Assembly: GCA_022844405.1 (NCBI GenBank)
Contig: JALHLV010000030.1
Location: 1 to 47,492 of the forward strand
Direction of reading: 5' to 3'
Source: Sphingomonadales bacterium
GTDB lineage: Bacteria > Pseudomonadota > Alphaproteobacteria > SMXS01
DNA length: 47,492 nucleotides
The translations under genes and the position numbers were made by a program. Of the stretch, positions 22,837 through 41,249 are shown one piece after another. Numbering within the stretch: position 1 is the stretch's first letter; the number at the start of each line of letters is the position of its first letter. The notes beneath the pieces are model-generated. The model searched no databases. It had not been told where the DNA came from and saw only the letters and a list, made by a program, of their open reading frames with translations.

Positions 22837-24804
22837 TCAGTCTCCCAGTTTCGCCCGCAGGCCGCCGAAGGCGCCGATGCCGGGCGACCGGTAGGAGAAC
22901 ACTTCCTCGTAGTCCTGGTCGACCAGATTCTCGACCCGGCCATAGATCTCGAGATGGTCGGTGATCCGGTAGCTGGCCGCCAGGGTGATCAGCACATAGT
23001 CGCGCAGCGTGACGACGGACTCCGGCGTGGCGGTCACGAACTCGTTGTCGAGCTGCTTGCCATTATAGGAAACGTCCAGGTTGGCGTTGCCCTTGCCGCC
23101 CGCGAACACGTAGTTGACGTTGAAGCTGCCCAAGTGCTTGGGCCGCCGCACCTCGTGCGCGCCGTCGGGCTGGCGGGAGTTGGTGTAGGTGTAGCTGCCG
23201 CCGACGGACAAATTCTCGCTGAGCTGGGCCGACAGCATCACCTCGATGCCGTCGCGCGTGCTGGTGCCGACCAGATTATCGACGGTGCTGAGAAAGGTGT
23301 TGAAGTCGAAGACGGTGACGATCTCGTTCTGCAGGTTGGCGTGGAACCAGGTCACGTCGAGGGTCAGCCTGTCGCCGAAGAACTTCTGCTCGACGCCGAC
23401 GTCGACGCTGCGGGATTCTTCGGGCTTCAGGTCGGGGTTGCCCAGAAAGAAGTCCGGGAAGAAACCGAACAGCTCGAAAAAGCCCGGATTGGTGACGGCG
23501 GTGCCGTGGCTGGCATGCAGCCGTGTGCCGATCTCCTTGAACTGCCAGGCCGCCGCGAGCCGGTACGTCGTGGCATTCCTGAACATGCGGTTATCGTCGT
23601 GACGCACGCCCGCGGAGAGGAACAGCCGGTCGGCGAAGCCAACGCGGTATTCGCCGATATAGCTGTTCTGCGGTTCCGACCGCTCCTGGTTCTCCAGCGC
23701 GTCGGGCACGGCGCCGCGATTGACGAAATCCTGCTCCTCGCGCTGGAACGCCACGGTGACATGGTGCTCGGCGTCGAGGAACGAGGGCGTCCGGAAGTTC
23801 ACCGTGTTCTGATAGGCGACCTTCAGCCGCTGGCCGTGATTGCCGGTCAGGTCATTGCTAGGGCTGATGTATTCGCGCTTTGTGTCGGCATACTGCACCG
23901 AGCCCTGGTGCACCCAGTGATCGTCGAACAGCGACAGCTCGCCCTGCACGCGGCCATAGAACTGGCGGTTCTTCTGCTCGTCGAGAGTGTCGATGATCAG
24001 GCCGTTGGTCGCGGTCGGCGGGAAATCGAAATCCTGAGCGTCGGTGTCGTTCCTGCTGGTCACGTAGCGGGCGACCGCGTCGAGGCGGAAGTTCTCGGTG
24101 ACCCGGGCCTTGCCCTTGCCGCTGAAGGTGAAGACGCGGGCGCCGTCCTTCTCGGCGCCGAAGCGCGACAGGTTGATGCCGCCCGTGCCGAAATAGCCGG
24201 CCGAGACGGCGCCGTTCACCCGTTCCGTGCCACCGGAAGCGAGCGCCGTCAGCTGCCGCTCGGCGAACGAGCCGCCTTCGGCCGAGCCCTCGAAGCGGAA
24301 TCCCGGATGGCCGCTCTTGGTGATGATGTTGATGACGCCGCCCAGCGCGTCCGAGCCATGGAGCGCGCTCTGGGCGCCGCGCAGCACCTCGATGCGCTCG
24401 ACGCCGACGGCCATCAGCCCGGCATAGTCGAACTCGCCGTTGAAGTTCAGCTCGTTGGCCTCGACGCCGTCGATCAGCACCAGCGTGTGGTTGCCCTCGG
24501 CGCCGCGCATGCGGACCTGGGTGAGCTGGCCGGGTCCGCCCGAGCGGCTGACGGCGATGCCGGGCACGCTGCGCAGCAGGTCGGAGACGACCGGGTTCTG
24601 ACGGCGCTCGATGTATTGCTCGTCGAGCACCGAGATGGCGTTGCCGATGGTGTAGGCCGCCGCTGGTGTCATGGTCGCGGTGACGAACACCGTGTCGCCG
24701 GGCAGCACGCCGTCCTCGGCAACGGCAGGGGCGGCGATCAGGCCGGCCAGCGCGGTGGCAATCAGCAGGGTGGGCGTTTGTCGGTGGGTCCGGTTGTCGG
24801 GCAT
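22837..24804 (-). CDS. btuB: TonB-dependent outer-membrane receptor, BtuB-like
   Basis: The 655-residue protein has a signal peptide (MPDNRTHRQTPTLLIATALA), a TonB-box-like segment TVFVTATMT, a plug domain with VSDLLRSVPGIAVSRSGG, RMRGAEGNHTLVLIDG and ALGGVINIITK, and a 22-strand-type barrel ending in the BtuB-like VENLVDQDYEEVFSY and a short C-terminus. ATG 24804 follows GAGGAAACAG, and the upstream open frame to 24921 lies in the leader. The cobalamin riboswitch directly upstream makes vitamin B12 (or another cobamide) the likely ligand. TonB/ExbBD are not in the window. Confidence 0.9.
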   Translation of the reverse strand: MPDNRTHRQTPTLLIATALAGLIAAPAVAEDGVLPGDTVFVTATMTPAAAYTIGNAISVLDEQYIERRQNPVVSDLLRSVPGIAVSRSGGPGQLTQVRMRGAEGNHTLVLIDGVEANELNFNGEFDYAGLMAVGVERIEVLRGAQSALHGSDALGGVINIITKSGHPGFRFEGSAEGGSFAERQLTALASGGTERVNGAVSAGYFGTGGINLSRFGAEKDGARVFTFSGKGKARVTENFRLDAVARYVTSRNDTDAQDFDFPPTATNGLIIDTLDEQKNRQFYGRVQGELSLFDDHWVHQGSVQYADTKREYISPSNDLTGNHGQRLKVAYQNTVNFRTPSFLDAEHHVTVAFQREEQDFVNRGAVPDALENQERSEPQNSYIGEYRVGFADRLFLSAGVRHDDNRMFRNATTYRLAAAWQFKEIGTRLHASHGTAVTNPGFFELFGFFPDFFLGNPDLKPEESRSVDVGVEQKFFGDRLTLDVTWFHANLQNEIVTVFDFNTFLSTVDNLVGTSTRDGIEVMLSAQLSENLSVGGSYTYTNSRQPDGAHEVRRPKHLGSFNVNYVFAGGKGNANLDVSYNGKQLDNEFVTATPESVVTLRDYVLITLAASYRITDHLEIYGRVENLVDQDYEEVFSYRSPGIGAFGGLRAKLGD

Positions 24805-24984
24805 CTGTTTCCTCGCAGCCACTTGGTTGGAGGCTGGACGCACGGGATGCCGCGGCGCGAAAGCGCTGCCGGTCATTGCTTGCCAGGACTTCGATGGTCC
24901 CATCCGCGGCGTCCAACCCATTCACAGGTGTCGCCACAGCGGAAACCCGCACCACCCACTACCCCGGTAGCTGGAAGGACGACG

Positions 24985-25145
24985 CGATGGCAGGTCTCCT
25001 GGCTGGCGGGTCGTCGCCCCGATACGCCTTCCCAGGACGGATCCCAGTGGCTCTTCGTATCGGAACTCGCCGCTTACAGTTGCGGGGACAGCCACGGCTG
25101 GAGCGCGCTGTGCTCTTCCGTGTTCCCTTTGAAGCCCTTTCGGGC
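24985..25145 (-). ncRNA. Cobalamin riboswitch
   Basis: Read on the minus strand, the leader has the conserved B12 elements in order: CTGTCCCCGCAACTGTAA (about 25073-25092), GCCACTG (about 25050), GGGAAGGC (about 25030), and the B12 box AGCCAGGAGACCTGCC at 24990-25005. It lies about 180 bases upstream of the receptor gene, and the intervening stretch, mostly structured G+C, can hold the expression platform. Binding of adenosylcobalamin would lower expression of the uptake operon. The boundaries are approximate. The remaining 420-base gap has no gene. Confidence 0.93.
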
Positions 25146-25222
25146 ACCATCGCGGCGCAAACTACGCCCGTCGCCCGGCAAACGCAATTGCGCAGAATTC
25201 GCGGGCTGGCCTGCGGAATTCC

Positions 25223-26773
25223 TCAGGCAGGGCGCCGGGAGGCGGAGGCGGAAACCAGCGGCAGGATCAGCAGACCCACGACCATGAACCCGGTCAGCAT
25301 GGCCCAGGCCTCGTTGATGGCCAGCACCATGCCCGCCTTCTCGACCAGCGGCCGGGCGAAGTCGACGGCCGAGGACTCCAGGTTCTCCAGCTTCACGCCC
25401 TTGAAGAATTTGAGCGGCAGGCCGACGAATTCGGCGGCTTCGCGGCTGCCCGCCATCAGTTCGGCGGCGAGGCGCCTGCCATGGCCTTCGGCGCGGCCGT
25501 AGATCACCGTATCGATCAGCGCGATACCGATCGCGCCGCCCAGGTTACGCATCAGGTTGAACAGGCCGCTGGCGTCGGCGACCCGGCCCGGCGGCAAGTG
25601 GCCCAGCGCCAGGCGGGTGGGCGGCAGCAGGCACAGCATGATCGCCGAGCCGCGCACGATCTGCGGCCACAGCATCTCGTCGAAGCCGGATCGCGGCGTC
25701 TGGAAACAGCTCATGCCCATGCCGGCGGCGAACAGCAGGAAGCCACAGGCCGTCAGCACCCTGGCATCGAACCGGCGCTCCAGTTGCACGACGATGGGCG
25801 CGGTCGCCAACTGGGCGAGCCCCGTCACCAGCATGACCTCGCCGATATCGAGCGGGCCGTAGCCGCGCACGAAACCGAGGAACACGGGCATCAGATAGAC
25901 CGAGCCATAGAGCCCGACACCAAGCAGGAAACTCAGGCCGCAGCCGACGGCGAAGGCCCGGTCGCGAAATTCACGCAGCTCCACGATCGGCCGCGCGCGG
26001 CCCAGGGTGCGGCGCACGAATGCCGCGCCGCTGGCGGCGCTCAACGCCAGCAAGGCCAGCACCAGCCCGGACGCCCAGCCGCGCTGCGGCGCTTCCTTCA
26101 GGCCGATCTCCAGCGCGGCGAGCGCCAGCGCCATCAGCAGCAGCGCCACGGCATCGACGCCGCGGACATGGCCCAGGTCGGGCCGCTCGCGCGGCAGGAA
26201 GGCCAGCGCCACCGCCGCCGCCACAAGGCCCGGCCCGATATTGATCAGGAACAGCCAGTGCCAGGAGAACGTCTCGGTGATCCAGCCGCCGACCAGCGGT
26301 CCGACGGTCGGCGCCAGCACCGCCAGCACGCCGCCGACGGTGGTGGCGAGCCCCTGCAGCCGGAACGGGAACATCAGGAACACGGCGGCGAACACCAGCG
26401 GGATCAGCACGCCGCCGGCGAATCCCTGCACCACGCGCCAGGCGACCAGTTCGGCGAAGCTCTCGCTGAGCGCGCAGCCCAGCGAGGCGGCGCTGAACAC
26501 GATGATGGCGGCAAAGAACAGGCCCCGCATCGTCAGCACCCGCGTCAGCAGCCCGGTCAGCGGGATGGCGATGATCTCGGCGATCAGGTAGGCGGTCTGG
26601 ATCCAGCTCATGCGCTCGGGCGCGATGCCCAGCGCGCCCTGGATGGCGGGCAGCGACGTCACCACCACCTGGATGTCCAGGATCGCCATGAACATGCCCA
26701 GGCACATGGCGGCGAAGCCGGCCCAGGTTTTCAGGGAAACCGGACGGTCGTCGGCGGGCGACAGCGGGGTCAC
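25223..26773 (-). CDS. MFS drug/metabolite exporter, EmrB/QacA (DHA2) type
   Basis: The 516-residue protein has fourteen predicted helices. Landmarks are FMAILDIQVVVTSLPAIQ in helix 1 (motif D1 of the 14-TM family), RVVQGFAGGVLIPL, and GPLVGGWITETFSWHWLFLI. DHA2 exporters usually expel hydrophobic drugs or metabolites with proton exchange. GTG 26773 overlaps the stop of the methyltransferase gene (GTGA), so it belongs to the polyketide operon and may export its lipid product or an intermediate. The frame upstream to 27085 is a shadow. Confidence 0.85.
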   Translation of the reverse strand: MTPLSPADDRPVSLKTWAGFAAMCLGMFMAILDIQVVVTSLPAIQGALGIAPERMSWIQTAYLIAEIIAIPLTGLLTRVLTMRGLFFAAIIVFSAASLGCALSESFAELVAWRVVQGFAGGVLIPLVFAAVFLMFPFRLQGLATTVGGVLAVLAPTVGPLVGGWITETFSWHWLFLINIGPGLVAAAVALAFLPRERPDLGHVRGVDAVALLLMALALAALEIGLKEAPQRGWASGLVLALLALSAASGAAFVRRTLGRARPIVELREFRDRAFAVGCGLSFLLGVGLYGSVYLMPVFLGFVRGYGPLDIGEVMLVTGLAQLATAPIVVQLERRFDARVLTACGFLLFAAGMGMSCFQTPRSGFDEMLWPQIVRGSAIMLCLLPPTRLALGHLPPGRVADASGLFNLMRNLGGAIGIALIDTVIYGRAEGHGRRLAAELMAGSREAAEFVGLPLKFFKGVKLENLESSAVDFARPLVEKAGMVLAINEAWAMLTGFMVVGLLILPLVSASASRRPA

Positions 26774-27255
26774 CGCGCCAGCGCCCGGTTCTCGGCGGTG
26801 ATGCGGATGGCGAGGACGGCGGCGTTGAGGATGGTGAAGACGACGCCGTACCAGACCAGCCCGAACGCCAGCGGCAGCACCAGGATTTCCCCGACCACGA
26901 CGCAATAGTTCGGGTGGCCGAGGAATCGGTACGGCCCGGCGCGGACCAGGGGCTCGCCCGGCAGCACGACGATCCGGGTCGTCCAGCGCGGCCCCAGCGT
27001 GACCAGTACCCAGACGCGCAGAAGCTGCAGCACGGCGAAGACGGCGAGCCAGGCCAGGTCCACGTCGCGACCGAGGCCGAACCACCAGAGACCGGCGAGC
27101 CAGGCCGCGTGCAGGCCGACGACCAGCGGATAATGTCCCGGCGCCACTTCGACCGCGCCGCGCGCCATCAACCGCGCGGTGTTGCGCCGTGCCAGCACCA
27201 GTTCGCCCAGCCGCTGGGCGGTCACGAGCAGCAGGATGACGAGCGCCAGGCTCAC
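26770..27255 (-). CDS. Isoprenylcysteine carboxyl methyltransferase (ICMT)-like membrane protein
   Basis: The 161-residue protein has four to five membrane helices and the ICMT/PEMT-family catalytic motif AGPYRFLGHPNYCVVVGE (His114, Asn116), followed by a C-terminal helix with TAENRAL (Glu155). In bacteria this family does not act on prenylated proteins. It is often paired with type III polyketide synthases and methylates the hydroxyl or pyrone of the alkyl product, as in the SrsB and YpbQ proteins. GTG 27255 overlaps the stop of the polyketide synthase. Function inferred from context. Confidence 0.8.
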   Translation of the reverse strand: MSLALVILLLVTAQRLGELVLARRNTARLMARGAVEVAPGHYPLVVGLHAAWLAGLWWFGLGRDVDLAWLAVFAVLQLLRVWVLVTLGPRWTTRIVVLPGEPLVRAGPYRFLGHPNYCVVVGEILVLPLAFGLVWYGVVFTILNAAVLAIRITAENRALAR

Positions 27256-28343
27256 GCGGCCCTCGCCAGCGCCGGCCTCGCCAGCGACAGGCAGCCGCAG
27301 GTGAAGCCCGGACCCAGCGCCGTCATCACCGCGCGCCCGGGCATGCCGGCCTTCAGCACCCGGTCCAGGACGAACAGCACGGTGGGCGCCGACATGTTGC
27401 CATGGCCCGACAGCACCGCCCGCTCGTGGTCGAGGGCGCCCTGCTCGAGGTGCAGCGTCTGTTCGAGCGCGGTGACCACCTTGGAGCCGCCGGGATGGCA
27501 GACGAACCGGTCGATGCTGTCGCGCTCGACGCCGATGCGCGTCAGGATGCCATCGATGGCCGGCCCGACATTGTCGCGGGCGAAGGGCGGGATCTCGCGG
27601 TCGAACACCACGCCGAAGCCGATCTCGTCGATATTCCAGCCCATGATGCCGAGCGTGTCGGACCAGAGGTGCTCGCCCGCGCCTTCGATCCGGGCGATGC
27701 CTTCCTCGCCGACGCGCACCACGGCGGCGGCGGCGCCGTCGCCGAACAGGGCGGTGGCGACGATGTTGGCCTTGGTCAGCTTGTCGAGCCGGAAGGCGGC
27801 GGAACAGATCTCCACCGCGACCAGAAGCACGACCGAACCGGGGCGCGCGCGCGCCAGCCGGTCGGCGATGGCGAGACCCTGGACGCCGCCCGCGCAGCCG
27901 AGGCCGAAGACCGGCACCCGCTCGACGTCGGGCCGGAAGCCGACGCGGCCGGCGGCGCGCGCCTCCAGGCTGGGCGTGGCGATGCCGGTGGAGGAGACGC
28001 TGACCACCGTATCGACATCGGCGCCGGTCAAACCGGCCGCCGTCAGCGCGTTCTGCGCGGCGTCGACGAACAGGTCGCAGGCGCCGGCCAGGTAGGATTC
28101 GGTCCGCTCACCCCAGCCGCGCTGCTCCAGATACCAGTCCATGGGCTGTACGAGGTGCCTGGTCGCGATACCCGTGGAGGCAAAGACGCGGGCCAGCCGG
28201 TCGAAGTCGGGATAGCGCGGCGAAAACACGTCGCGGGCGATGCGGGAAGCGTCGGCCTGGGTCAGCAGATGGGGCGGGACCGCGGTCGCGAGCGACAGCA
28301 GGCTTGCCTGGACTCCGTCAAGCGGTCCGGTCGATCTCTGCAT
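27252..28343 (-). CDS. Type III polyketide synthase
   Basis: The 363-residue protein is a chalcone/stilbene-synthase-type enzyme. The catalytic triad is complete: Cys150 in FGLGCAGG, His283 in CHPGGSK and Asn316 in SGHGNMSAP. GPGFTCGCLSL near the C-terminus is also typical. Type III synthases extend acyl-CoA with malonyl units to give alkylresorcinols or alkylpyrones. The next two genes, an ICMT-like methyltransferase and an MFS exporter, overlap it by 4 bases each, suggesting production, methylation and perhaps export of a phenolic lipid. ATG 28343 was chosen; the frame is open to 28475. No flavin hydroxylase follows. Confidence 0.88.
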   Translation of the reverse strand: MQRSTGPLDGVQASLLSLATAVPPHLLTQADASRIARDVFSPRYPDFDRLARVFASTGIATRHLVQPMDWYLEQRGWGERTESYLAGACDLFVDAAQNALTAAGLTGADVDTVVSVSSTGIATPSLEARAAGRVGFRPDVERVPVFGLGCAGGVQGLAIADRLARARPGSVVLLVAVEICSAAFRLDKLTKANIVATALFGDGAAAAVVRVGEEGIARIEGAGEHLWSDTLGIMGWNIDEIGFGVVFDREIPPFARDNVGPAIDGILTRIGVERDSIDRFVCHPGGSKVVTALEQTLHLEQGALDHERAVLSGHGNMSAPTVLFVLDRVLKAGMPGRAVMTALGPGFTCGCLSLARPALARAA

Positions 28344-28558
28344 GGCGATGACCTTATCAGCGGCGGCTTGCGCCGGCCGGGTGGTATCTGGTTGACGTGC
28401 CCGATACGCTTTAGAAGTATCGCGTGCACCGGCACTGTCAACGCCGGACGGCCGCCCTTGGTGCCCCCCACGCAAAAGGACATGGCGATTTCAACAGGAT
28501 TCGGAAACAGGCAACCGTGGCTGGTCCATGGATGTCGATGACGGACGACGCCTGACAC

Positions 28559-29434
28559 CTACCGCGCGTCGTATCCGATACTGTCGGGCGTTACATAGAG
28601 CGGCGCGCGCTCGGGCTCCAGCACCGTCGGACGGCCATGGCACAGGTTGATGGTTTCGCCCGTGCGCCCACCCGGACCCTCCTTGATGATGTCGACGACG
28701 ACCTGCGCCGAATCCTCGGGCCGCATCCAGGTGGCGGCGAGCTCGGGGGTCACGGCATCGCCGAGGAAGTTGCGCAACATCGAGGTGTCGGTGGCGCCCA
28801 TGGCCATGCAGTTCACCCGGATGCCGTGCGGCCGCAGCGCCTTGGCCCAGGCGAAGGTCAGCGCGTAGGTGCCGTATTTGCTGGCGTCGTAGATGTCGAA
28901 GACGATGCTGCCGCCGGTGGGCCGGGGCGACTCCGCCCACGGGCAGCTGTCCAGACGCGGGCACAGCTCGCGCGGCGAGCCGCAGGTGACGCCGTGGTCA
29001 GTGCCGATGTTGACGATGTTGCCGCCGCCGCGCGCGATCATGCTGGGGATCGCCGCCCGGCCCATCAGGTACTCGCCCTTCAGGTTGGTGCCGACCATGC
29101 CGTCATAGTCGGCCAGGGTCTTGTCCAGGTCGTCATGCGACGAGCTGACCCAGCACTTGCCGGCGTTGTTGATCAGGATGTCGACGCCGCCGAAGCGGGC
29201 GATAACATCGTCAACGAAATTGCGCGCCACTTTCGGATCGGACACGTCGCCGACGACGGCCGTGGCCTTGACGCCCCGCCGCTCCAGTTCCTTCGGCAGG
29301 TCGAGCACCTCGGACATGAGGTCGATGACCGCCACGTTGCAGCCCTCGCGCGCCAAGGCCCGGGCATAGGCGCGGCCGATGCCGATGGCCGCACCGGTGA
29401 CGATGGCGGTCTTTCCGATAAGCAACTCGGTCAT
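28559..29434 (-). CDS. Short-chain dehydrogenase with extended cysteine-containing insert
   Basis: The 291-residue SDR has TGAAIGIG at 13-20, NNAG near 91, and Ser169, Tyr182 and Lys186 as catalytic residues (IYDASK). An insert sits before Ser169 and includes a Cys pattern CX6CX5C: Cys151, Cys158, Cys164 in TCGSPRELCPRLDSC. The tail reads GETINLCHGRPTVLEPER. It is a close paralogue of the SDR at 30251-31144. The start ATG 29434 follows GGAGAAAGCC. It is last in the molybdoenzyme operon, and its substrate is unknown. Confidence 0.85.
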   Translation of the reverse strand: MTELLIGKTAIVTGAAIGIGRAYARALAREGCNVAVIDLMSEVLDLPKELERRGVKATAVVGDVSDPKVARNFVDDVIARFGGVDILINNAGKCWVSSSHDDLDKTLADYDGMVGTNLKGEYLMGRAAIPSMIARGGGNIVNIGTDHGVTCGSPRELCPRLDSCPWAESPRPTGGSIVFDIYDASKYGTYALTFAWAKALRPHGIRVNCMAMGATDTSMLRNFLGDAVTPELAATWMRPEDSAQVVVDIIKEGPGGRTGETINLCHGRPTVLEPERAPLYVTPDSIGYDAR

Positions 29435-29466
29435 GGCTTTCTCCCCGCCGGCGGTCCGGCCTTGCC

Positions 29467-30258
29467 TCAGGCCACGCCCGAGATGCGTTTGTGCGGCGCC
29501 TTGCGCGGGCCCAGTTCGACCGGATAGCCGACCCAGGCGCCGATATTCTCGCCGGTGCGGCCGTCCTTGAACAGGTCGATCATCTGCTGGGCGATCTGCT
29601 CGGGCTTCATCACCTGTTTGGCCATGTCCGGCGGCAGCTGCTTGTCCGGGAACAGGCCGCGCAGCATCGGCGTGTCGGTGGCGCCCATGCACAGTGCGTT
29701 GACCCGGATGTTGAACTCGGCGAGCGCCTTCGCCCAGGAATCGGTGAAGCCGTTCAGCGCCCATTTGGAGGCGTTGTAGAGGTCTGTGTCCGGCTGGTTG
29801 GTGCCGTCGCTGCGGGCCGGCAGCACGTAATAGGTGCTGATGTTGACGATGTCGCCCGAGCCGCGGGTCTTCATCTGCGGGACGGCCGCGCGGGTCAGCA
29901 TCAGCAGGCCCTTGAAGTTGGTGTCCATGATGAAGTCCCAGTCGGCGACCGCCTGCTCCCAGGACGAATCGATCGGCGTCTTCTTCCAGGTGCCGGCGTT
30001 GTTGACCAGGATGTCGATGCCGCCCAGAGCGGCGGCGGCCGCGACCACCTTCTCCACGTCGGCGCGCTTGGAGATGTCGGCCTTCAGGCCGACCACCTTG
30101 GCGCCGGTTTCGGCGGCGATGCTCTTTGCGACATCGGCGATCTTGTCCTGCACGTCGAAGGCGAGGACGGTCGCGCCTTCCTGCGCCAGCCGGCGGGCGA
30201 AGGCCTCGCCCAGTCCCTGCGCCGCGCCGCTGACGATGGCGATCTTTCCCTTAAGCAT
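29467..30258 (-). CDS. Short-chain dehydrogenase/reductase
   Basis: The 263-residue classical SDR has a modified nucleotide loop SGAAQGLG (residues 10-17), NNAG near 87, and Tyr161/Lys165 in YNASK. Its C-terminal tail GRTGENIGAWVGYPVELGP resembles the tails of the two paralogues beside it, but it lacks their cysteine insert. The start overlaps the end of the upstream SDR by 8 bases, so translation is coupled. It likely acts on a step in the same catabolic pathway. Confidence 0.85.
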   Translation of the reverse strand: MLKGKIAIVSGAAQGLGEAFARRLAQEGATVLAFDVQDKIADVAKSIAAETGAKVVGLKADISKRADVEKVVAAAAALGGIDILVNNAGTWKKTPIDSSWEQAVADWDFIMDTNFKGLLMLTRAAVPQMKTRGSGDIVNISTYYVLPARSDGTNQPDTDLYNASKWALNGFTDSWAKALAEFNIRVNALCMGATDTPMLRGLFPDKQLPPDMAKQVMKPEQIAQQMIDLFKDGRTGENIGAWVGYPVELGPRKAPHKRISGVA

Positions 30259-31144
30259 CGACGGTCTCCCTCGCAGTGTAGCCGACGCTCTCGGGCGTCA
30301 CGAAGATGGGCTTGCGTTCCGGCTCGAGCACGGTAGGCCGGCCGACGCAAAGATTGATGGTCTCTCCGGTGCGGCCCTTGGGACCTTCCTTGAGGATATC
30401 GACGACCACCTGGGCCGAGTTTTCGGCGGTCATCCAGGTGGCGACTTCCTCGGGCGTTGCCCGGTCGCCATAGAAGTTGCGGATCATCCAGGAGTCCGTC
30501 GCGCCCATGCACATGCAGTTGACGCGGATATTCTGCGGCTTCAACGCCTTCGCCCAGGCGAAGGTCAGGGCATAGGTGCCGTATTTGCTGGCGTCATAGA
30601 TGTCCATGACGGTACCGCCGCCGGTCGGCCGTGGCGAATCGCCCCACGGACAGGCCGACAGGTGCGGGCACAGCTCGCGGGGCGAGCCGCAGGTGACGCC
30701 ATGGTCTGTACCGATATTGACGATCTCGCCGCCACGGCCCTGCTTCAGCAGTTGCGCAATCACCGCGCGGCCCATCAGGTATTCGCCACGCAGATTGGTG
30801 CCCACCATGCTTTCATAGTCGGCTTCGGTCTTGTCCAGATCGTCATCGACCAGGCTGACCGAACACTGGCCCGCGTTGTTGATCAGGATGTCGATGCCGC
30901 CGAATCTGCCGATCACGTCATCGACGAATTTGCGCACGGTCGCCGGCTGCGACACGTCACCCCGCACGGCAAAGGCCTTGACCCCGTGCTTCTCCAGTTC
31001 CCCAGCCAGATTGGTGATCTCGGCCCGGAGGTCGATCACTGCCACGTTGCAGCCTTCCCTGGCCATGGCCTTGGCATAGGCATTGCCGATGCCCACGGCG
31101 GCGCCGGTGACGATGGCGCTCCGGCCTTTCAATGACACACTCAT
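30251..31144 (-). CDS. Short-chain dehydrogenase with extended cysteine-containing insert
   Basis: The 297-residue SDR is the paralogue of the enzyme at 28559-29434: TGAAVGIG at 13-20, NNAG near 92, and Ser170, Tyr183 and Lys187. The same insert is present, with Cys152, Cys159 and Cys165 (TCGSPRELCPHLSAC), and the same tail GETINLCVGRPTVLEPER. Conservation of all three cysteines between the paralogues suggests they matter, perhaps in metal binding or disulfides. ATG 31144 overlaps the stop of the preceding SDR by one base (TGATG). Confidence 0.87.
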   Translation of the reverse strand: MSVSLKGRSAIVTGAAVGIGNAYAKAMAREGCNVAVIDLRAEITNLAGELEKHGVKAFAVRGDVSQPATVRKFVDDVIGRFGGIDILINNAGQCSVSLVDDDLDKTEADYESMVGTNLRGEYLMGRAVIAQLLKQGRGGEIVNIGTDHGVTCGSPRELCPHLSACPWGDSPRPTGGGTVMDIYDASKYGTYALTFAWAKALKPQNIRVNCMCMGATDSWMIRNFYGDRATPEEVATWMTAENSAQVVVDILKEGPKGRTGETINLCVGRPTVLEPERKPIFVTPESVGYTARETVDA

Positions 31145-31911
31145 CAGCGTCCTCCCGCGACGTCAAGGAACTGGCCCGTCGTCCATTCGGCGGCGGGCGA
31201 AGCAAAGAACACCGCCGCCGCGGCGACGTCTTCGGGATAGCCGGTGCGGCCCAGCGGCGTCGCGTCGGCGGCCATCTTCAGCGCCTGATCGTTCGTCATG
31301 TTCAGGGTTTCCTTGAACATGTCGGTGACGACGATGCCCGGCGCGATGCAGTTGACCGTGATCTTCTTCGGCGCCAGTTCGACCGCCATGGTGCGGGTGA
31401 ACGCGATCATGCCGTTGTTGGCCGAGGAATAGGCGCCGAAGCCCGGCGATGCGTTGTGCGCGGCGACGGAGATGATGTTGATGATGCGGCCGCCGTTGGT
31501 CATCCGCCTGGCGGCCTGCTGCGACCCCCAGAACTTGGTCTTCATGTTGAGGTCGATCTGCTCGTCCCACTTGTCGATGGAAATCTCGGGCAGCGGGTAC
31601 ATCTTGCGGTCCAGATTGCCGCCGGCGTTGTTCACCATGATGTCGAGGCCGCCGAGCTCGGCGACCACGCGGTCGAGCGCCTTGGGGATGGCGGTCCAGT
31701 CCATCACGTCCGCGGAAATCGCCAGGCTCTTGCGGCCCAGCGCCCTGATTTCCTTTGCCACGTCGTCCACGTCCGCCTGACGGCGGGCGAGCACGGCCAC
31801 ATCCGCACCGCATTCGGCGAACGCGATGGCGATGCCCTTGCCGATGCCCCTGCCGCCGCCGGTGACGACCGCGACCTTGCCGTCCAAGCGGAACCGCTCG
31901 TGCATTCCCAT
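31144..31911 (-). CDS. SDR-family protein with Asn in place of the catalytic Lys
   Basis: The 255-residue protein is a classical SDR in fold: GGGRGIG near residue 18, NNAG near 95 and Ser148 in NIISVAA. Tyr161 is present, but the usual YxxxK reads YSSAN, so Lys165 is Asn. The C-terminus ends with the usual GQFLDVAGG. ATG 31911 was chosen because GGGGAG lies 6 bases upstream; TTG 31914 is in frame. The change could mean altered chemistry, a hydratase or isomerase role, or an inactive partner of the neighbouring SDRs. It is the gene next to the molybdoenzyme. Confidence 0.85.
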   Translation of the reverse strand: MGMHERFRLDGKVAVVTGGGRGIGKGIAIAFAECGADVAVLARRQADVDDVAKEIRALGRKSLAISADVMDWTAIPKALDRVVAELGGLDIMVNNAGGNLDRKMYPLPEISIDKWDEQIDLNMKTKFWGSQQAARRMTNGGRIINIISVAAHNASPGFGAYSSANNGMIAFTRTMAVELAPKKITVNCIAPGIVVTDMFKETLNMTNDQALKMAADATPLGRTGYPEDVAAAAVFFASPAAEWTTGQFLDVAGGR

Positions 31912-31927
31912 CAATATCTCCCCTGTA

Positions 31928-34099
31928 CTACTGGGCTGCGATGCTCTGGTCGACCCGCGTCAGGTTGACCGGGATGGCGCTCATGCGCGGCATGCCGGTG
32001 CGCGGGTCGTAGTCCTTCTCCACGTTCGTCAGCCGGCCCGTGTTGGAGCCGATGAAGAACACCTGCTTGTCGAACTCGGGCGCGTCGCCGAACGAGTGCG
32101 CCATGGAGATCACGCCGCGCTTCACGTCCGGCGCTTCCTCGATGATGCCGAGGATGGACGCATGGTCCGACGAGATCTTCACCACATCGCCCGGATTGAG
32201 GCCCAGCGCCGCGATGTCGCCCGGGTTCATGAAGGCCGGGTTGTAGCTGTGGTTACGCACCAGCGCCGGAATATCGCGGCCCGACGAGTTGTAGACGTCG
32301 TTCATGCGGCGGCTGACCAGGCGGTGGGTGAATCGCACGGCGGTATAGCCGGCATGGTCGGTGACCGGCTCGGCCATCACCTGGGCCAGTTCCGCCATCA
32401 TGTCGGCGTTGCCGATATCGAGCTTCTCCTCGCAGTCCTCGTCCTTCGGCAGCACCAGGATGGTCGGGTCGTCGAAGATGTGGCCGTGCGGGTACTTCTT
32501 CACCTCGGACAGCGGTATCCGCGACCCCTTGCAGAGAATCTCGAAGATGTCGTCGGTCGATGGCTTGTTGACCATGTCGAGTTCGGTGCCGTTCACCCGG
32601 AGCTGCAGGCCCATGCGCTGCGCGAGGCCGTAGAAGAATTCCCACTCCTCGACCAAGTCCGCGCCGGCCGGGTCGTCGACGATCTTCGGCTGGTACATGG
32701 CGTAGGGCTCGGGATAGCCCGTCGAGAAGCCATAGAACCAGATGAACTCGTTCGGCTGGGTGATCGCCGGGGACTCCAGGCCGAGGCGCGGCGGGATCAC
32801 GTAATCCGCCAGCTTCGCCGTCGCCGACATCTTGATGTCGAGGGTGACGTTGAGCTCGAGCTTCTTCATCGCCTCGTAGGTCTTGAGCTGGTCGGGCCAG
32901 GCGGCCATCGGGTTGCCGCCGACGCTGATCAGCGCCTTCACCTGGCCGTCGCCGTCGAGCAGGATCTCGTCGGCGAGCGCGGCGGCGGTCAGGCCGCTGA
33001 CGTTGTCGCCCAGATCGCGGACGCGCAGCTTCTCGCCATAGCCCCATGCCTGCTTCGGCCTGGCCTCGGCCTGCGCCTTGCCGCGGCGTTCCGGGATCAG
33101 CACGAACGGATTGGGCATCTTCTCGCCCTCGCGCAGCCAGCGGCCGCACAACGTGTTGATGACCAGCACCATGTATTCGGTCAGCGTGCCGCGGGGCGCC
33201 ATGTTGGGTCCGGTGCCGGCCGTCGTCATGCCGCGCTTGCCGGACGCATAGACCCGCGCCGCCTGGATCAGCAATTCCTCGGGAACTTCCGCCCGCTTCG
33301 AAACGTAGTCGGGGGTGAAGGGAGCGACGGCCTGCTTCAGTGCCTCGAACCCTTCGACGTCGGTGTCGAGGAACTCGCGGTCGTACAGGCCTTCCTCGAT
33401 GATGATATGGGCCAGGCCGGCCAGGATCGTGGGATCTTCGCCCGGCTTGCACTGCAGGTGGATATGAGCCTTTTCGGCACATTCGGTCTTTCGGGGATCG
33501 ATCACAATCAGCTTCATGCCGCGGCGCAGGGCGTCGTGCAGCCGTTTGGCCGGGTTGTACTGCGGAATGCCGCCCCATTTGGACACAACAGGGTTGGCGC
33601 CGACCAGCATCCAGGTGTCCGAATCGGAGAACGGCTGCGGACCGGCGCTCCAGCGCCCGTGGAACGCGATGGCCATGGGCTTGCCCGGCTGGTCGATGCT
33701 GCCCGACGAAAATTTCATCGGCGAGCCGATCGCCTGCATGAACGCGCCCGCCACGGCCGAGCCCGCCGGATACGGGAACGAGTAGGTCGCGGTGTACAGG
33801 GCGACCGCGCGCGGGCCATGATCAGCGATCAATTGCTTCAGCCGCGCCGCGATATCGTCGAGTGCCGCGGCCGAAGTCACAGTTTCGTGAGCGCCGGAAA
33901 CCTTGCGCTGCGGCCGAAGAACCCTTTCGGGATTGTAATGTTGCTGCGGCAACTGTCGGCCCTTGACGCAGGTATATCCGAAATACATCGGATTTTCCTT
34001 GTCGCCGATGACTTTTACGGCTCTGCCATCCTCGACTGTTACTTTAATGCCACAGAAAGAGTGGCAAAAACGGCAGATCGCCGTTTGCGTCTCAGCCAT
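31928..34099 (-). CDS. Molybdopterin (DMSO reductase family) oxidoreductase
   Basis: The 723-residue protein has an N-terminal [4Fe-4S] site CX2CX3CX27C at Cys9, Cys12, Cys16 and Cys44, then the molybdopterin-binding domains (VGANPVVSKWGG, VIDPRKTECAEKAHIHLQ, SVGGNPMAAWPD) and a C-terminal dinucleotide-binding domain (NPGDVVKISSDHASILGIIE). No Tat or Sec signal is visible, so it is probably cytoplasmic. Where the molybdenum ligand is expected (FSSGSIDQPGK, about 130-140), there is no Cys; Ser134 or Asp136 could be the ligand. It heads the operon with four SDRs. Substrate unknown; a hydratase or hydroxylase of the acetylene-hydratase type is possible. Confidence 0.85.
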   Translation of the reverse strand: MAETQTAICRFCHSFCGIKVTVEDGRAVKVIGDKENPMYFGYTCVKGRQLPQQHYNPERVLRPQRKVSGAHETVTSAAALDDIAARLKQLIADHGPRAVALYTATYSFPYPAGSAVAGAFMQAIGSPMKFSSGSIDQPGKPMAIAFHGRWSAGPQPFSDSDTWMLVGANPVVSKWGGIPQYNPAKRLHDALRRGMKLIVIDPRKTECAEKAHIHLQCKPGEDPTILAGLAHIIIEEGLYDREFLDTDVEGFEALKQAVAPFTPDYVSKRAEVPEELLIQAARVYASGKRGMTTAGTGPNMAPRGTLTEYMVLVINTLCGRWLREGEKMPNPFVLIPERRGKAQAEARPKQAWGYGEKLRVRDLGDNVSGLTAAALADEILLDGDGQVKALISVGGNPMAAWPDQLKTYEAMKKLELNVTLDIKMSATAKLADYVIPPRLGLESPAITQPNEFIWFYGFSTGYPEPYAMYQPKIVDDPAGADLVEEWEFFYGLAQRMGLQLRVNGTELDMVNKPSTDDIFEILCKGSRIPLSEVKKYPHGHIFDDPTILVLPKDEDCEEKLDIGNADMMAELAQVMAEPVTDHAGYTAVRFTHRLVSRRMNDVYNSSGRDIPALVRNHSYNPAFMNPGDIAALGLNPGDVVKISSDHASILGIIEEAPDVKRGVISMAHSFGDAPEFDKQVFFIGSNTGRLTNVEKDYDPRTGMPRMSAIPVNLTRVDQSIAAQ

Positions 34100-35869: not shown

Positions 35870-36787
35870 CTATTTGTTGAGGAAGTTGAGCGGCAGGCCC
35901 GGGCGCGGCCACGCGCAGCTCACCAGCTTGCCGGTGGTCGACAGAGTGACGAACGCCGTCTTCAGGCCCTTGCCGCCGAAGCAGATATTGGTGGTGAGAA
36001 TGTCGGGAAACGGGAAGTGCTCGGTGCCCGAGCCGTCCGCCCTGAAGCTGGTGACGCCGCCATTGATCAGCGTCGCCACGCAGATGTTGCCGTCGGCGTC
36101 GACCGCCATGGAATCGAGCAGCTGGTGGCCCGGCAGGCCGTGCACCAGCCGGTGCGGCTGGCCGTTCGGCTGCTTCCTGGGCTTGCCCGGAGCGTCGAGA
36201 TCGACGGCCCACAGGCGGCCGGTGGTCGTTTCGGCGAAGTACAGACTCTTCTCGTCGGGCGACAGGGCGCAGCCATTGGCGGTGATGACGCCGTGCACGA
36301 TCCGCGTGATCGAACTGCCGTCCGGCCTGGCGTAATAGACCGAGCTCAGGTCCATGTCCCACTGGCGGCGCTTGCCCAGATCGGTGAAGTAGAAGCCGCC
36401 GGAGCGGTCGAACACCAGGTCGTTCGGCCCTTTCAGCTTCTGGCCGTCGCATTCGGTGTAGAGCACCTTCACTTCGCCGGTGTCCGGGTTGACCTTCTCG
36501 ATGCGGCCGCCCTTGTAGTCGTCGGACTGGTTGCCGGGCATCAGGCCGCCGTCGGGCAGCGTGTGCCAGGCGAAGCCGCCATTGTTGCAGATATAGATCC
36601 AGCCGTCCGGCCCCATGGCCGCGCCGTTGGGGCCGCCGCCGACGGTGGCGATGACCTCGATCTTGCCGCCCGGCAGGACCCGCGACAGCGCGCCGCGCTC
36701 GATCTCCACCAGGATGACCGAGCCGTCCGGCATGGCGATCGGGCCTTCCGGAAACCGGAGCCCGGATGCGATTTCGGTGATCTTCAT
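35870..36787 (-). CDS. SMP-30/gluconolactonase-like hydrolase
   Basis: The 305-residue beta-propeller protein carries the family metal ligands: Glu14 in RFPEGP, Asn171 in ITANGCAL and Asp225 in LDSMAVD; Asn122 in KGPNDLVFD is also conserved. These enzymes hydrolyse sugar lactones. ATG 36787 follows GGGAGGGCGAC. It follows the EthD-like gene by 25 bases and completes the MobA-VOC-EthD-SMP-30 run, suggesting a role in catabolism of an aromatic or lactone compound. Gene-order linkage is inference. Confidence 0.87.
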   Translation of the reverse strand: MKITEIASGLRFPEGPIAMPDGSVILVEIERGALSRVLPGGKIEVIATVGGGPNGAAMGPDGWIYICNNGGFAWHTLPDGGLMPGNQSDDYKGGRIEKVNPDTGEVKVLYTECDGQKLKGPNDLVFDRSGGFYFTDLGKRRQWDMDLSSVYYARPDGSSITRIVHGVITANGCALSPDEKSLYFAETTTGRLWAVDLDAPGKPRKQPNGQPHRLVHGLPGHQLLDSMAVDADGNICVATLINGGVTSFRADGSGTEHFPFPDILTTNICFGGKGLKTAFVTLSTTGKLVSCAWPRPGLPLNFLNK

Positions 36788-37225: not shown

Positions 37226-37762
37226 CTACAGCACGACCTCGCGCACCGGGTCCGAGCCGTCCCAGCCGGTGGCGGCGTTGATCAGCATGGTCTGGAAGTC
37301 GACCAGATCCTGGCGTTTTTCCACCAGCTCGACCATCACGCCCAGATCGGCGCGGGTATCCATGTAGGCGAAGCGGCCGCCGATGTCGGGCGCGCCGCCG
37401 GTGGTGACCGCCGGATAACCGAGCAGCTCGTATTTCAGCTTCACCGCGTCGAAGTCGTCGACCCAGACGCCGACATGGTGGAAGCCGCCCTTGTCAGGGC
37501 CGAACACGTCGCGGTAGGCGCTGGGGCTGTCGTCGTGCTGCTGGATCAGCTCGATCTCGATGTCGCCGGCCTGTGCCAGCGCGAACGAGGCGTCCAGCTT
37601 GCCCGGTTTGCCGCGATAGGTGATCTCGCCGGCGTCGAGATGCCGGTAGATGTAGAACGGCCCGACGCCGAGCTTGCCGGTCCAGCGCTGCAGCGCCGCG
37701 TCGATATCCGGCACCACGTAGGAATTCTGGAACACCTTCAGGCCCAGCGGCAGGTCGATCAT
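37226..37762 (-). CDS. VOC family (glyoxalase/dioxygenase-like) protein
   Basis: The 178-residue protein holds two vicinal-oxygen-chelate modules: one from YVVPDIDAALQRWTGKLGVGPF and one from GGFHHVGVWVDDFDAVK. Glu in ELIQQHDD and Glu in MVELVEK are candidate metal ligands, with the His in FHHVGV. The fold is used by glyoxalases, epimerases and extradiol dioxygenases. ATG 37762 follows GGGGAG by 7 bases; the frame is open to 37777. It lies between mobA and the EthD-like gene on the same strand. Substrate unknown. Confidence 0.8.
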   Translation of the reverse strand: MIDLPLGLKVFQNSYVVPDIDAALQRWTGKLGVGPFYIYRHLDAGEITYRGKPGKLDASFALAQAGDIEIELIQQHDDSPSAYRDVFGPDKGGFHHVGVWVDDFDAVKLKYELLGYPAVTTGGAPDIGGRFAYMDTRADLGVMVELVEKRQDLVDFQTMLINAATGWDGSDPVREVVL

Positions 37763-37785
37763 CGGTCGTCTCCCCATTTCCGCGC

Positions 37786-38400
37786 TCAGTCTAAGCCCAG
37801 CCGCTCGGCCTCGGCCAGTTCTTCAGGCGTGTTGATGTTGAAAAACGGATCGATCGGCACTGTCGGAAAGTCCACCGCCCGGGCGCAGACGCGCTCGGCC
37901 CATTCCCCCGCCTTGCGCCCGCCGCCCGCCAGGAAGTGCGACAGGCCGCCATGCAGCCGCATGTGGAACAGGCCGGCGACCGGATGCAGCCGGCCGCCCG
38001 AGCGCGCCACCGCCGCCGGCGCGTCGCCCACGGCCGCGTGCAGCCGCGCCACCATGTCGCGCGGCAGGAACGGCGAATCGCACGGCGCGGTGACGACCCA
38101 GCCGAGCGACGGCGCATGGACCGCCGCCCACTCCATGGCGGCGAGCAGGCCGGCGAGCGGTCCGGGATAGGCATCGACCGTGTCGCCGATCACCGGCAGC
38201 GCGAAGCGCTTCCAGCGGTTCGGGTTGCCATTGGCGCTCAGCATCAGCCGGTCCACCTGCGGCGCCAGCCGGTCGATCACATGGCGCAGCACCGGCTTGC
38301 CGGCGAGCGGCAGCAGCGCCTTGTCGCCGCCGCCCATGCGGCGCGACAGGCCGCCCGCGAGGATGACGCCGAGCACGCCGCTTGTGGCTGTATTTTCCAT
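37786..38400 (-). CDS. mobA: Molybdenum cofactor guanylyltransferase
   Basis: The 204-residue protein has the nucleotidyltransferase signature LAGGLSRRMGGGDKALL (Lys27), LSANGNP, GPLAGLLAAME, PCDSPFLP with the metal-binding Asp, and a final FFNINTPEEL. MobA attaches GMP to molybdopterin to make the guanine dinucleotide cofactor used by DMSO-reductase-family enzymes, such as the one at 31928-34099. It diverges from mobB across 102 bases. ATG 38400 was chosen; the frame is open to 38481. Confidence 0.92.
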   Translation of the reverse strand: MENTATSGVLGVILAGGLSRRMGGGDKALLPLAGKPVLRHVIDRLAPQVDRLMLSANGNPNRWKRFALPVIGDTVDAYPGPLAGLLAAMEWAAVHAPSLGWVVTAPCDSPFLPRDMVARLHAAVGDAPAAVARSGGRLHPVAGLFHMRLHGGLSHFLAGGGRKAGEWAERVCARAVDFPTVPIDPFFNINTPEELAEAERLGLD

Positions 38401-38502
38401 GAGTGGCAGTCTTTTTCGTCGCGGCTTTCGGACGGCAAGGCGATACCGCCTTGCCTGAAAGCGCTTTAGGATACGCCCCAACTATAGCGGGGAGCGGCCC
38501 TG

Positions 38503-39012
38503 ATGCACGTGATCGGTATCGTCGGCTGGAAGAACAGCGGCAAGACCACGCTGGTCGTCGAGCTGGTGCGCCTGCTGACGGCACGCGGCCTGAAGGTGGC
38601 GACGGTCAAGCATGCCCACCACGATTTCGACATCGACCATCCCGGCAAGGACAGCTACCGCCACCGCGAGGCGGGCGCCACCGACGTGATCGTCGCCTCG
38701 GGCGCGCGCTGGGCGCAGGTGCACGAGCTGCGCGGCAGCCCCGAGCCGGAGCTGGCCGACCTGCTGCCGCGCCTCTCGCCCGATACCGACATCGTGCTGG
38801 TGGAAGGCTTCAAGCGCGACCCGCACGACAAGATCGAGGTGGTGCCGGCCGATTTCGACGGCCGGCTGCTGACGCTGGACGACCCGCATGTGATCGCCCT
38901 CGCCAGCGACGCGCCGGGCCTGCCGCCGGTCGCCGTGCCGGTGCTGCGCCGGTCGGACCCGGCGCAGGTGGCGGCGTTCATCCTGGCGCATCTGGGTCTC
39001 GGAACCGTTTGA
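38503..39012 (+). CDS. mobB: Molybdopterin-guanine dinucleotide biosynthesis adaptor
   Basis: The 169-residue P-loop GTPase begins MHVIGIVGWKNSGKTTLVVE, with the Walker A GWKNSGKTT. HAHHDFDIDHPGKDSYRHREAG follows in MobB fashion, then VLVEGFKRDPHDKIEV. MobB assists MobA in placing the cofactor. The neighbouring mobA supports the name. A NifU-like gene follows 32 bases later in the same direction. Confidence 0.92.
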   Translation: MHVIGIVGWKNSGKTTLVVELVRLLTARGLKVATVKHAHHDFDIDHPGKDSYRHREAGATDVIVASGARWAQVHELRGSPEPELADLLPRLSPDTDIVLVEGFKRDPHDKIEVVPADFDGRLLTLDDPHVIALASDAPGLPPVAVPVLRRSDPAQVAAFILAHLGLGTV

Positions 39013-39044
39013 CGGCCGGGGACCGGCGCCTATATCAACCGGCC

Positions 39045-39512
39045 ATGCTCGACGCCCTCTACAACAAGGACGTGCTGCGCCGCGCCGCCACCATCGGCCG
39101 GACCGGACGCCTTGCCGCGCCCGACGCCAGCGTCACCCGTGTCTCGCCGGTCTGCGGCAGCCGGATCACGGTGGACGTGACGATCAAGGACGGCGTGGTG
39201 AGCGACTACGCCCAGGACGTGCACGCCTGCGCGCTGGGCCAGTCGTCGGCCGCCGTGCTCGCCGAGAAAATCGTTGGGCGCGAGATCGCCGAGTTGCGCG
39301 AAGTGGCCGGCAAACTGCGCGCCATGCTGGTCGACGGCGCGCCGCCGCCCGACGGCGACTGGGCCGGTCTCGCCATCCTAGTGGCGGTGCACCAGCACAA
39401 GACCCGCCACGGCGCGGTCATGCTGCCCTTCGAGGCGGTGATCGACGCGATCGCGGAAGTGACGGGCGAGGATGCGGTTGCTGCCGGCGAACAGTTAACC
39501 AAGCGGTCGTAG
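39045..39512 (+). CDS. NifU/IscU-like iron-sulfur cluster scaffold
   Basis: The 155-residue protein resembles the IscU-type scaffold fold: YNKDVLRRAA, the first Cys in SPVCGSRITVDV (Cys37), and the second in HACALGQSSAAVLA (Cys62). The third expected Cys, which in IscU lies in a late R-x-x-C segment, is absent: the corresponding stretch reads RHGAVMLPFEAV. Such scaffolds assemble Fe-S clusters; the molybdoenzyme needs one. Its follow-on from mobB supports a shared operon. The missing Cys may be a trait of this subfamily. Confidence 0.75.
   Translation: MLDALYNKDVLRRAATIGRTGRLAAPDASVTRVSPVCGSRITVDVTIKDGVVSDYAQDVHACALGQSSAAVLAEKIVGREIAELREVAGKLRAMLVDGAPPPDGDWAGLAILVAVHQHKTRHGAVMLPFEAVIDAIAEVTGEDAVAAGEQLTKRS

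Positions 39513-39650: not shown

Positions 39651-41249
<1,599 letters not shown>

Follow-up and report, generated by a model that had tools for sequence, protein, structure and literature searches.

A partnerless molybdoenzyme with aspartate at the molybdenum-ligand position, and its dehydrogenase operon, appear to travel with cytochrome P450 genes

According to a 2023 survey, MopB enzymes whose molybdenum (Mo) is coordinated by aspartate form one lineage, namely NarG, the perchlorate, chlorate and selenate reductases, the dimethyl sulfide, ethylbenzene, p-cymene and steroid C25 dehydrogenases and a haloarchaeal DMSO reductase, all of them periplasmic except NarG, which is possibly cytoplasmic, while the main novel branches appear to use cysteine (PMC10100899). 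Those acting on hydrocarbons (ethylbenzene, p-cymene, steroid C25) are hydroxylases (PMC10100899), and the Mo-dependent steroid hydroxylases of this lineage are precedents for hydrocarbon hydroxylation (PMC6016249, PMC11061730). A further point of reference is acetylene hydratase of Pelobacter acetylenicus (PDB 2e7z), a cytoplasmic enzyme (PMC10100899), to which the catechol dehydroxylases are reported to be closest among known MopBs (PMC7028382). Here we analyse a stretch of 47,492 nucleotides from a Sphingomonadales bacterium (assembly GCA_022844405.1, contig JALHLV010000030.1; hereafter the window), which is an entire contig of a 3.78-Mb, 41-contig genome and carries on its minus strand a MopB-type gene, here called MopB, and four genes for short-chain dehydrogenases/reductases (SDR1 to SDR4; Table 1). 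The main new finding on the role of this operon is that MopB, SDR1-SDR3 and a set of P450 genes travel together, and in this group of uncultured bacteria the MopB-SDR set appears to belong to a pathway that depends on oxygen and employs cytochrome P450s as well. No description of this gene set, beyond reviews and precedents, was found in the literature covered, which was partial and left most subscription journals outside.

Analysis of open reading frames (ORFs) and starts gives the order MopB-SDR1-SDR2-SDR3-SDR4, and the tight spacing reported in a preliminary description, made from the DNA alone, holds, with overlaps of up to 8 bases and gaps of at most 32: MopB and SDR1 are separated by 16 bases (13 when counted from the TTG), SDR1 and SDR2 overlap by 1 and SDR2 and SDR3 by 8, and 32 bases precede SDR4. 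The mechanical ORF of SDR4 (28559-29764) is 110 codons too long; the homologous start lies at 29434, immediately preceded by GGGGAGAAAG, and a purine-rich, Shine-Dalgarno-like stretch stands ahead of every one of the five starts. MopB scores over the Pfam cut-offs for Molybdop_Fe4S4, Molybdopterin and Molydop_binding, and all four SDRs over those for adh_short/adh_short_C2 (SDR4 was scanned against Pfam and NCBIfam minus its first ten residues). A promoter and terminator scan was uninformative (1 promoter-like and 5 terminator-like sites, versus 0.8 and 4.0 in shuffles).

Compared with nine other genomes of the family, six of the same genus and three of two other genera, the arrangement MopB-SDR1-SDR2-SDR3 is found in the same order in all nine. 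The ratios of nonsynonymous to synonymous substitution (dN/dS) of 0.065-0.218, from comparison with three other genomes of the genus, indicate that all five genes are maintained under purifying selection, and together with the recurrence this makes the gene order more than chance. Five of the genus's six other genomes carry SDR4 (the contig of the sixth ends earlier), and after SDR3 it was not found in the three genomes of the other two genera; being 73% identical to SDR2, it is taken as a tandem duplicate, and an independent activity for it was set aside. The four dehydrogenases originally described are thus three conserved SDRs and a genus-specific copy of one of them.

Outside the family, 16 genomes were chosen among 80 loci to span MopB identities of 49-75%, and an even sample of 398 genomes of the window's phylum (Pseudomonadota), its own included, served as controls; the controls are the less sensitive, since the top 5 (SDR2), 4 (P450) and 2 (MopB) candidates per genome were scored there and nearly all in the 16 genomes. 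SDR2 was found in 9 of the 16, the lactonase of the operon's neighbourhood (SGL) in 7 and a VOC relative in 11. The nine are among the 11 genomes whose MopB is at least 59% identical, and none is among the five below (Fisher p 0.005, kinship uncorrected); SDR2 identity is at least 50% in eight of them and 45-46% in an Acidimicrobiia metagenome-assembled genome (MAG), G491. Scoring the candidates stated above, no SDR2 at E<=1e-60 was found in the 397 other phylum genomes, and MopB at E<=1e-100 in one of them, at 42% identity. SDR2-SDR3 adjoin MopB in three distant MAGs (L069, L070, L088). In G491 a distant MopB (28%) with the same Asp (STVDQMPKH) is immediately preceded by an SDR resembling SDR2 and SDR3 (42-44%; L182:1500-4610), which makes a second SDR-MopB pairing, with a different MopB.

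The link to P450 genes came from gammaproteobacterial MAGs. A P450 gene lies near the SDR cassette in G482 (one of two copies), G483, G484 and G489, and none was identified on the short G490 contig carrying the cassette; SDR1 (74-75%) follows SDR2-SDR3 in G483 and G484. Also found near the cassette, in at least one of these loci, are a P450-like protein lacking the Cys, a ferredoxin, a Rieske oxygenase, a phosphotriesterase-family protein, a CurA-like reductase and ThuA. Nine of ten family genomes, the tenth being 78% complete, carry an orthologue, about 70% identical, of the P450 that stands beside SDR2-SDR3-SDR1 in G484 (L178:3711-4988); that of the window's own genome lies at G000:C12:44225-45487. 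P450s of this type were found at 62% identity or more in 8 of the 16 MopB genomes and, at E<=1e-110 among the top four candidates, in none of the 397 other phylum genomes; of the 16, seven have both SDR2 and this P450, three have one of the two and six have neither (Fisher p 0.04). In the window's own genome a ferredoxin (61%), two P450_B/P450-like pairs (67 + 53% and 73 + 54%), a Rieske oxygenase and the P450 stand within 11 kb, and the matching stretch of G007, another genome, adds a thiolase, a PhyH-type dioxygenase and relatives of CurA, SnoaL and VOC. Neighbourhood counts of this kind are lower bounds, without a background set, because ORF picking was crude in this high-GC DNA. It is this co-occurrence, across the family and the 16 MopB genomes, that shows MopB, SDR1-3 and the P450 set travelling together.

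Where a P450-like protein is encoded immediately behind a normal P450, it lacks the heme-ligand Cys (FGLGKPSKHP versus FGVGPHMCPG). The pair recurs in distant genomes, and such proteins are found at L197:10797-12164 and 13774-15150 (own genome, G000 C12), L178:2313-3638, L199:16954-18378 and L203:8736-10151; they are possibly auxiliary or differently ligated P450s.

These distributions also bear on whether MopB and the SDRs share a substrate at all. MopB might instead reduce an oxyanion or an S- or N-oxide, with the SDRs serving only the P450 pathway; SDR2-SDR3, with or without SDR1, lack an adjoining MopB in G482, G483, G484, G489 and G490, and MopB relatives of 37-58% identity stand in varied neighbourhoods. 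The preliminary description had named SDRs belonging to other operons as evidence against its proposal, and outside the family this is partly so, in those five MAGs, four of them with a P450 nearby, but the genes still co-occur. An account without a shared substrate is also hard to square with the order kept in all nine family genomes, the close linkage in three other MAGs, the similar SDR beside a distant Asp-type MopB in G491 and the restriction of SDR2 to closer MopBs among the 16 genomes, and we regard it as quite improbable.

The Fe-S motif of the MopB protein is C9-x2-C12-x3-C16-x27-C44. In alignments, Asp136 takes the place of the ligand Cys in acetylene hydratase (2e7z) and 2vpw and of the Cys or Sec in formate dehydrogenases, residues that we take to be the Mo ligands of those enzymes. 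An Asp occupies this column in all 105 rows of an alignment covering 97 distinct loci, the window included, at 37-100% identity, and likewise in 78 of 78 rows of alignment A2 and 65 of 65 of A3; the four Cys are invariant in the 105 rows, and Lys46 is kept in 100 of them. A MopB copy split by a frame change (L081) was excluded from the 105-row residue counts and, together with eight duplicate rows of the same loci, from the initial close-relative tree; two rows with stops (L076, L103) were kept with X in those counts and that tree and excluded from A2 and A3. Asp136 is likely the Mo ligand, and MopB is expected to be a bis-molybdopterin guanine dinucleotide (bis-MGD) enzyme. The preliminary description, which had noted an Fe-S motif, no Cys at the ligand site and no export signal, is borne out on each count: the first Fe-S Cys, being residue 9, leaves no room for a signal peptide, and MopB is cytoplasmic-looking, without a visible export signal. 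A scan of 16 further window genes around it revealed none for a partner subunit of the Fe-S or the membrane kind.

The type II MopBs NarG and ClrA have Asp in the same ligand column but differ in other respects. They carry a His-containing N-terminal Fe-S motif (THGVNCTGSC in NarG, MTHSNGCVAGC in ClrA), where MopB has C-x2-C-x3-C, their partner subunits are encoded (NarH and ClrB were seen), whereas MopB has none, they fall into a separate clade, and the TIGR03479 model gives MopB 96.9 bits against a cut-off of 984.75. Furthermore, they are mostly periplasmic (PMC10100899). None of the 24 NCBIfam models matching MopB reaches its cut-off, and labels such as formate dehydrogenase, nitrate reductase or thiosulfate reductase, with scores far under the cut-offs, were rejected; for formate dehydrogenase in particular, MopB has D-Q in place of the C(Sec)-H of FdhF and FdnG, and TIGR01591 gives 186.6 bits against 666.25.

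Among proteins of solved structure, the nearest in sequence are PsrA/PhsA, formate dehydrogenases linked to F420 and hydrogen, and acetylene hydratase, the last being one of three profile matches at E<=1e-60. An AlphaFold2 model built from 65 sequences (pLDDT 93.9) has the four-domain MopB fold and gives a VIA Z of 34.3 to 8rqz_C (root-mean-square deviation, rmsd, 2.9 over 605 residues); the value for acetylene hydratase, 32.3 (rmsd 3.0 over 646 residues), differs by no more than about 3 Z from those for NapA, formate dehydrogenase and Psr. The best formate dehydrogenase, acetylene hydratase, Nap and Psr structures lie at 31-34, the DMSO reductases at 26-27 and perchlorate reductase PcrA (5ch7_C) at 25.4, a comparison of a predicted model that ranks families and excludes none.

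A reference tree was built from 24 close rows (including the window), seven distant relatives (28-30% identical), NarG of E. coli and Thermus, ClrA, FdhF, FdnG, NapA, DmsA and a haloarchaeal enzyme, with acetylene hydratase and PsrA as partial rows. The 31 MopB-type rows form one clade (100/96), next to which stands acetylene hydratase (84/87), whose row is long; the branching of MopB near this enzyme is weakly supported. NarG and ClrA form another clade (100/99), joined by the haloarchaeal enzyme (98/88), which does not show an aligned Asp at the ligand column, and by DmsA (99/96). Forcing all Asp rows into one clade costs 37.2 log-likelihood units (p-AU 0.0052), in a test with long branches, three type II rows and a group defined after the first tree was seen; the two NarG and ClrA are the only type II rows, and a search of 249 phylum genomes with TIGR03479 gave nothing at E<=1e-250. 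Because the MopB clade lies apart from NarG/ClrA and the joint Asp clade is rejected, Asp at the Mo-ligand position probably arose at least twice.

The Asp is present in all seven distant relatives, from Deinococcus, Streptomyces, Mycobacterium branderi, Novosphingobium and three further genomes, which share both clade and residue with MopB; they differ in the absence of an SDR2-SDR3 pair from the four plasmid stretches read around them, one of which, L213, has a single unpaired SDR (38% to SDR3). At L213:2971-5157, on a plasmid of Streptomyces sp. NBC_00887, the distant Asp-type MopB stands among acyl carrier protein, SDR and aminotransferase genes, likely a biosynthetic cluster.

The relationship to acetylene hydratase raises the possibility that MopB is likewise a redox-neutral hydratase, acting on an alkyne, an allene or an activated alkene of the pathway. 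The two share the MopB fold, one [4Fe-4S] cluster, a cytoplasmic location (PMC10100899; in MopB as it appears from the sequence) and, with weak support, sister branches; acetylene hydratase is among the best profile matches and near the top by fold, and no electron-transfer partner is encoded beside MopB. The active sites, however, differ: acetylene hydratase has a Cys ligand where MopB has Asp136, and its Asp after the second Fe-S Cys (Asp13), presumably the catalytic residue, is replaced by His13 in MopB and is mostly His or Ser across the alignment (H 66, S 19, others 20 of 105 rows). With the sister support also weak and MopB perhaps redox-active, we consider a hydratase of this kind unlikely.

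Reductive chemistry has a stronger claim. MopB could be a ferredoxin-dependent reductive dehydroxylase, or another deoxygenating reductase, removing a hydroxyl group activated by the SDRs or P450s, and this is a close rival of a water-using step. The dehydroxylases of catechols and corticoids, compared here by descriptions that name no Mo-ligand residue for them, are MopBs acting on organic compounds, as is proposed for MopB, and the catechol enzymes are related to acetylene hydratase (PMC7028382, PMC11574389), next to whose branch MopB falls. A gut MopB dehydroxylates corticoids (PMC11574389), and in Streptomyces, an aerobe, the production of CC-1065 requires a homologue that likely removes, reductively, a hydroxyl from a late intermediate (PMC7028382); the likely biosynthetic cluster around the Streptomyces MopB of L213 points the same way. 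Since the [4Fe-4S] cluster and Lys46 are kept, MopB can probably exchange electrons, and an FdxA-like ferredoxin is encoded within the P450 cluster. Set against this are the partner electron-transfer proteins of the gut enzymes and the twin-arginine (TAT) export of those of Eggerthella (PMC7028382), neither of which MopB has, and a reference tree that holds no dehydroxylase sequence. Reductive dehydroxylation is on balance a serious possibility, well short of an even chance. It accounts for the evidence almost equally, and the hydroxylation or hydration step of the preliminary description stands only as a suggestion.

In SDR1 the catalytic YxxxK is replaced by YxxxN in 12 of 12 sequences (Y-S-[SAT]-A-N in all ten family genomes, and both gammaproteobacterial orthologues), and because the Lys is lacking throughout, SDR1 may not be an ordinary alcohol dehydrogenase, contrary to the first proposal. 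In polyketide ketoreductases the positions of Lys and Asn are exchanged, and by analogy a Lys-rich helix in SDR1 (LN-x-KTK) may compensate for the loss. Its strand beta-2 ends in A-R-R, not Asp, which suggests NADP(H) as cofactor; SDR2, SDR3 and SDR4 have an Asp after beta-2, suggesting NAD, and keep TGxxxGxG and YxxxK (YDAGK in L178 and L180), with SGxxxGxG in 12 of 13 SDR3 rows. At the site of the catalytic Ser these three have Thr, namely Thr146 in all 14 SDR2/SDR4 rows and Thr in 13 of 13 SDR3 rows, the SDR3 of L177, with Ser, being the exception. After Thr146, SDR2 and SDR4 carry an insert with H148, C152 and C165 in 14 of 14 rows and C159 in 13; L181 has kept the His and two of the Cys, the first and the last, and the 42% relatives L182 and L183 are without the Cys-rich insert. 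The pattern could be a metal site, in a region where the AlphaFold2 model of SDR2 (mean pLDDT 66.9) falls below 50 (residues 147-162 and 164-183, covering the insert). SDR3 follows SDR2 directly wherever an SDR2 orthologue of at least 50% was found and read (nine family genomes, L069, L070, L088 and L176-L181), and we infer a functional pair or heteromer.

Taken together, our preferred reading, held tentatively, is that the operon is a section of an aerobic, P450/Rieske-type catabolic pathway for a cyclic terpenoid- or steroid-like compound, with MopB as a water-using hydroxylase or hydratase. Oxygenases elsewhere in the genome (the P450 cluster with its ferredoxin, and the Rieske oxygenase) would begin the attack on the substrate; MopB, as a cytoplasmic, single-subunit bis-MGD enzyme, would add a water-derived oxygen, either hydroxylating an activated carbon or hydrating a double bond; the alcohol so formed would be oxidised with NAD+ by SDR2/SDR3 and the duplicate SDR4; SDR1, whose catalytic site is altered, would perform a further step, perhaps NADPH-linked; and a later lactone would be opened by lactonases, the neighbouring SGL among them. 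Ethylbenzene dehydrogenase works with an SDR. The reading draws on the gene order, SDR2-SDR3 beside MopB in three distant MAGs, the G491 pairing, the distributions of SDR2 and the P450, the P450 cluster of the own genome, MobA and MobB near the operon and the invariant Asp, and the compound class on the company of P450, Rieske, SnoaL, thiolase, an FAD_binding_2 flavoprotein and lactonases. The analysis demonstrates the order and conservation of the genes, the position of the Asp and, probably, its separate origin, the co-occurrence with one P450 and the changed catalytic residues. That MopB and the SDRs share a substrate, the class of that compound, the way in which the MopB reaction runs, the SDR2/SDR3 pairing and the cofactors we infer; the terpenoid suggestion of the preliminary description fits the P450s, ferredoxin, Rieske oxygenase, lactonase and SnoaL-like proteins, but one substrate for the whole operon cannot be read from the operon alone, and the original outline survives in part.

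Several points weigh against this reading. MopB lies outside the Asp clade of the known hydroxylases, the Asp13 of acetylene hydratase is His in MopB, no electron acceptor is encoded in the operon, though hydroxylation needs one, and SDR1, from its motif, may be inactive as a dehydrogenase. In the five gammaproteobacterial MAGs SDR2-SDR3 are on contigs other than MopB's, where short contigs could hide proximity, and SDR2 was not found in G485 and G488 despite a MopB 75% identical, in MAGs from which sequence is possibly missing. Furthermore, the Fisher values overstate independence, because the 16 genomes were self-chosen among the 80 loci and share ancestry, and the counts rest on related genomes, incomplete MAGs and phylum controls that were less deeply scored. 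The report of a dehydroxylase homologue from an aerobic Streptomyces takes away one objection to reductive dehydroxylation; it slightly raised our estimate of that rival and lowered that of the water-using step.

The genes upstream of MopB are conserved to varying extents (Table 1). The neighbouring SGL protein is similar over its whole chain to the 'beta-propeller lactonase' 7ris and the 'gluconolactonase' 8djf (full-length matches, E about 1e-103), and VOC relatives of 42-45% identity lie upstream of MopB in L065, L066, L068 and L071. A gene for a NifU-like protein directly follows MobB (together 38503-39509, plus strand), a pair kept in the eight family loci reaching it. Downstream of SDR4 (22837-28475, minus strand) are genes for a BtuB-like TonB receptor, an MFS protein, an ICMT-type methyltransferase and a type III polyketide synthase; this block follows SDR4 in five of the six other genus genomes (the sixth contig ends earlier) and was not found in the stretches read from the other two genera. 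One conserved transcript with the operon was set aside on that ground, and the block looks like a separate secondary-metabolite module.

Second MopB copies, 72-76% identical, occur elsewhere in four genus genomes (L046:8935-11100, L047:2989-5157, L048:8960-11128, L049:8891-11059), with thiolase-, SnoaL- and KstD-like proteins seen by eye among their neighbours; a fifth (L050:9124-11291, the same place as L081, in G003) is split into two overlapping frames, and none was seen in the window's own genome. On a plasmid of Sphingopyxis macrogoltabida (L031:11986-19897) a 43% relative of MopB stands beside an AMP-binding protein, two 2-hydroxyacyl-CoA dehydratase-family genes and an activase.

Table 1. 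Features of the MopB-SDR operon and conserved neighbouring genes (positions in the window).
Feature	Position	Strand	Remarks
MopB	31928..34099	-	723-aa, partnerless molybdopterin oxidoreductase, bis-MGD type expected; Pfam PF04879, PF00384, PF01568
Asp136 codon (GAC), Mo-ligand position	33692..33694	-	codon checked; aligned with ligand Cys/Sec of known MopBs
SDR1	31144..31911	-	ATG start, listed ORF begins at TTG one codon earlier; TGGGRGIG, Ser kept, Tyr161, Asn165
SDR2	30251..31144	-	Asp38 ending beta-2; Thr146/Tyr183/Lys187; insert H148, C152, C159, C165
SDR3	29467..30258	-	constant SDR2 neighbour; Thr at Ser site; YxxxK kept
SDR4	28559..29434	-	tandem duplicate of SDR2, 73% identical
SMP-30/gluconolactonase-type lactonase (SGL)	35870..36787	-	Pfam SGL; 8/9 family loci; G003 without it in remaining 1.5 kb of contig
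VOC/glyoxalase-4 protein	37226..37777	-	Pfam; 6/8 family loci reaching it; two of three genera
MobA-like NTP transferase (molybdenum cofactor)	37786..38481	-	Pfam PF12804; 8/8 family loci reaching it
MobB (molybdopterin guanine dinucleotide synthesis protein B)	38503..39012	+	Pfam PF03205; 8/8 family loci reaching it
AMP-binding acyl-CoA ligase	39651..41249	-	Pfam, NF004837 over cut-off; 8/8 family loci reaching it, partly cut in L040

In its broadest form, which we regard as doubtful, the proposal would make MopB the representative of a second, independently evolved Asp-ligated Mo (or W) family on the acetylene hydratase branch, cytoplasmic, partnerless and working in P450 pathways, not in anaerobic respiration; its SDR-linked form, with an SDR2/SDR3 heteromer holding a metal-binding His/Cys insert and a Lys-less SDR1, would serve a compound class whose degradation is undescribed. 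If true, a separate Asp lineage near acetylene hydratase, partnerless and tied to aerobic catabolism, would widen the known scope of the cofactor. The analysis also provides a defined gene set for a one-pathway substrate search (MopB, SDR1-3, P450_A, and P450_B with its Cys-less partner), and flags a broad group of 'molybdopterin-dependent oxidoreductases' sharing the Asp in mycobacteria, streptomycetes, deinococci, myxobacteria and sphingomonads.

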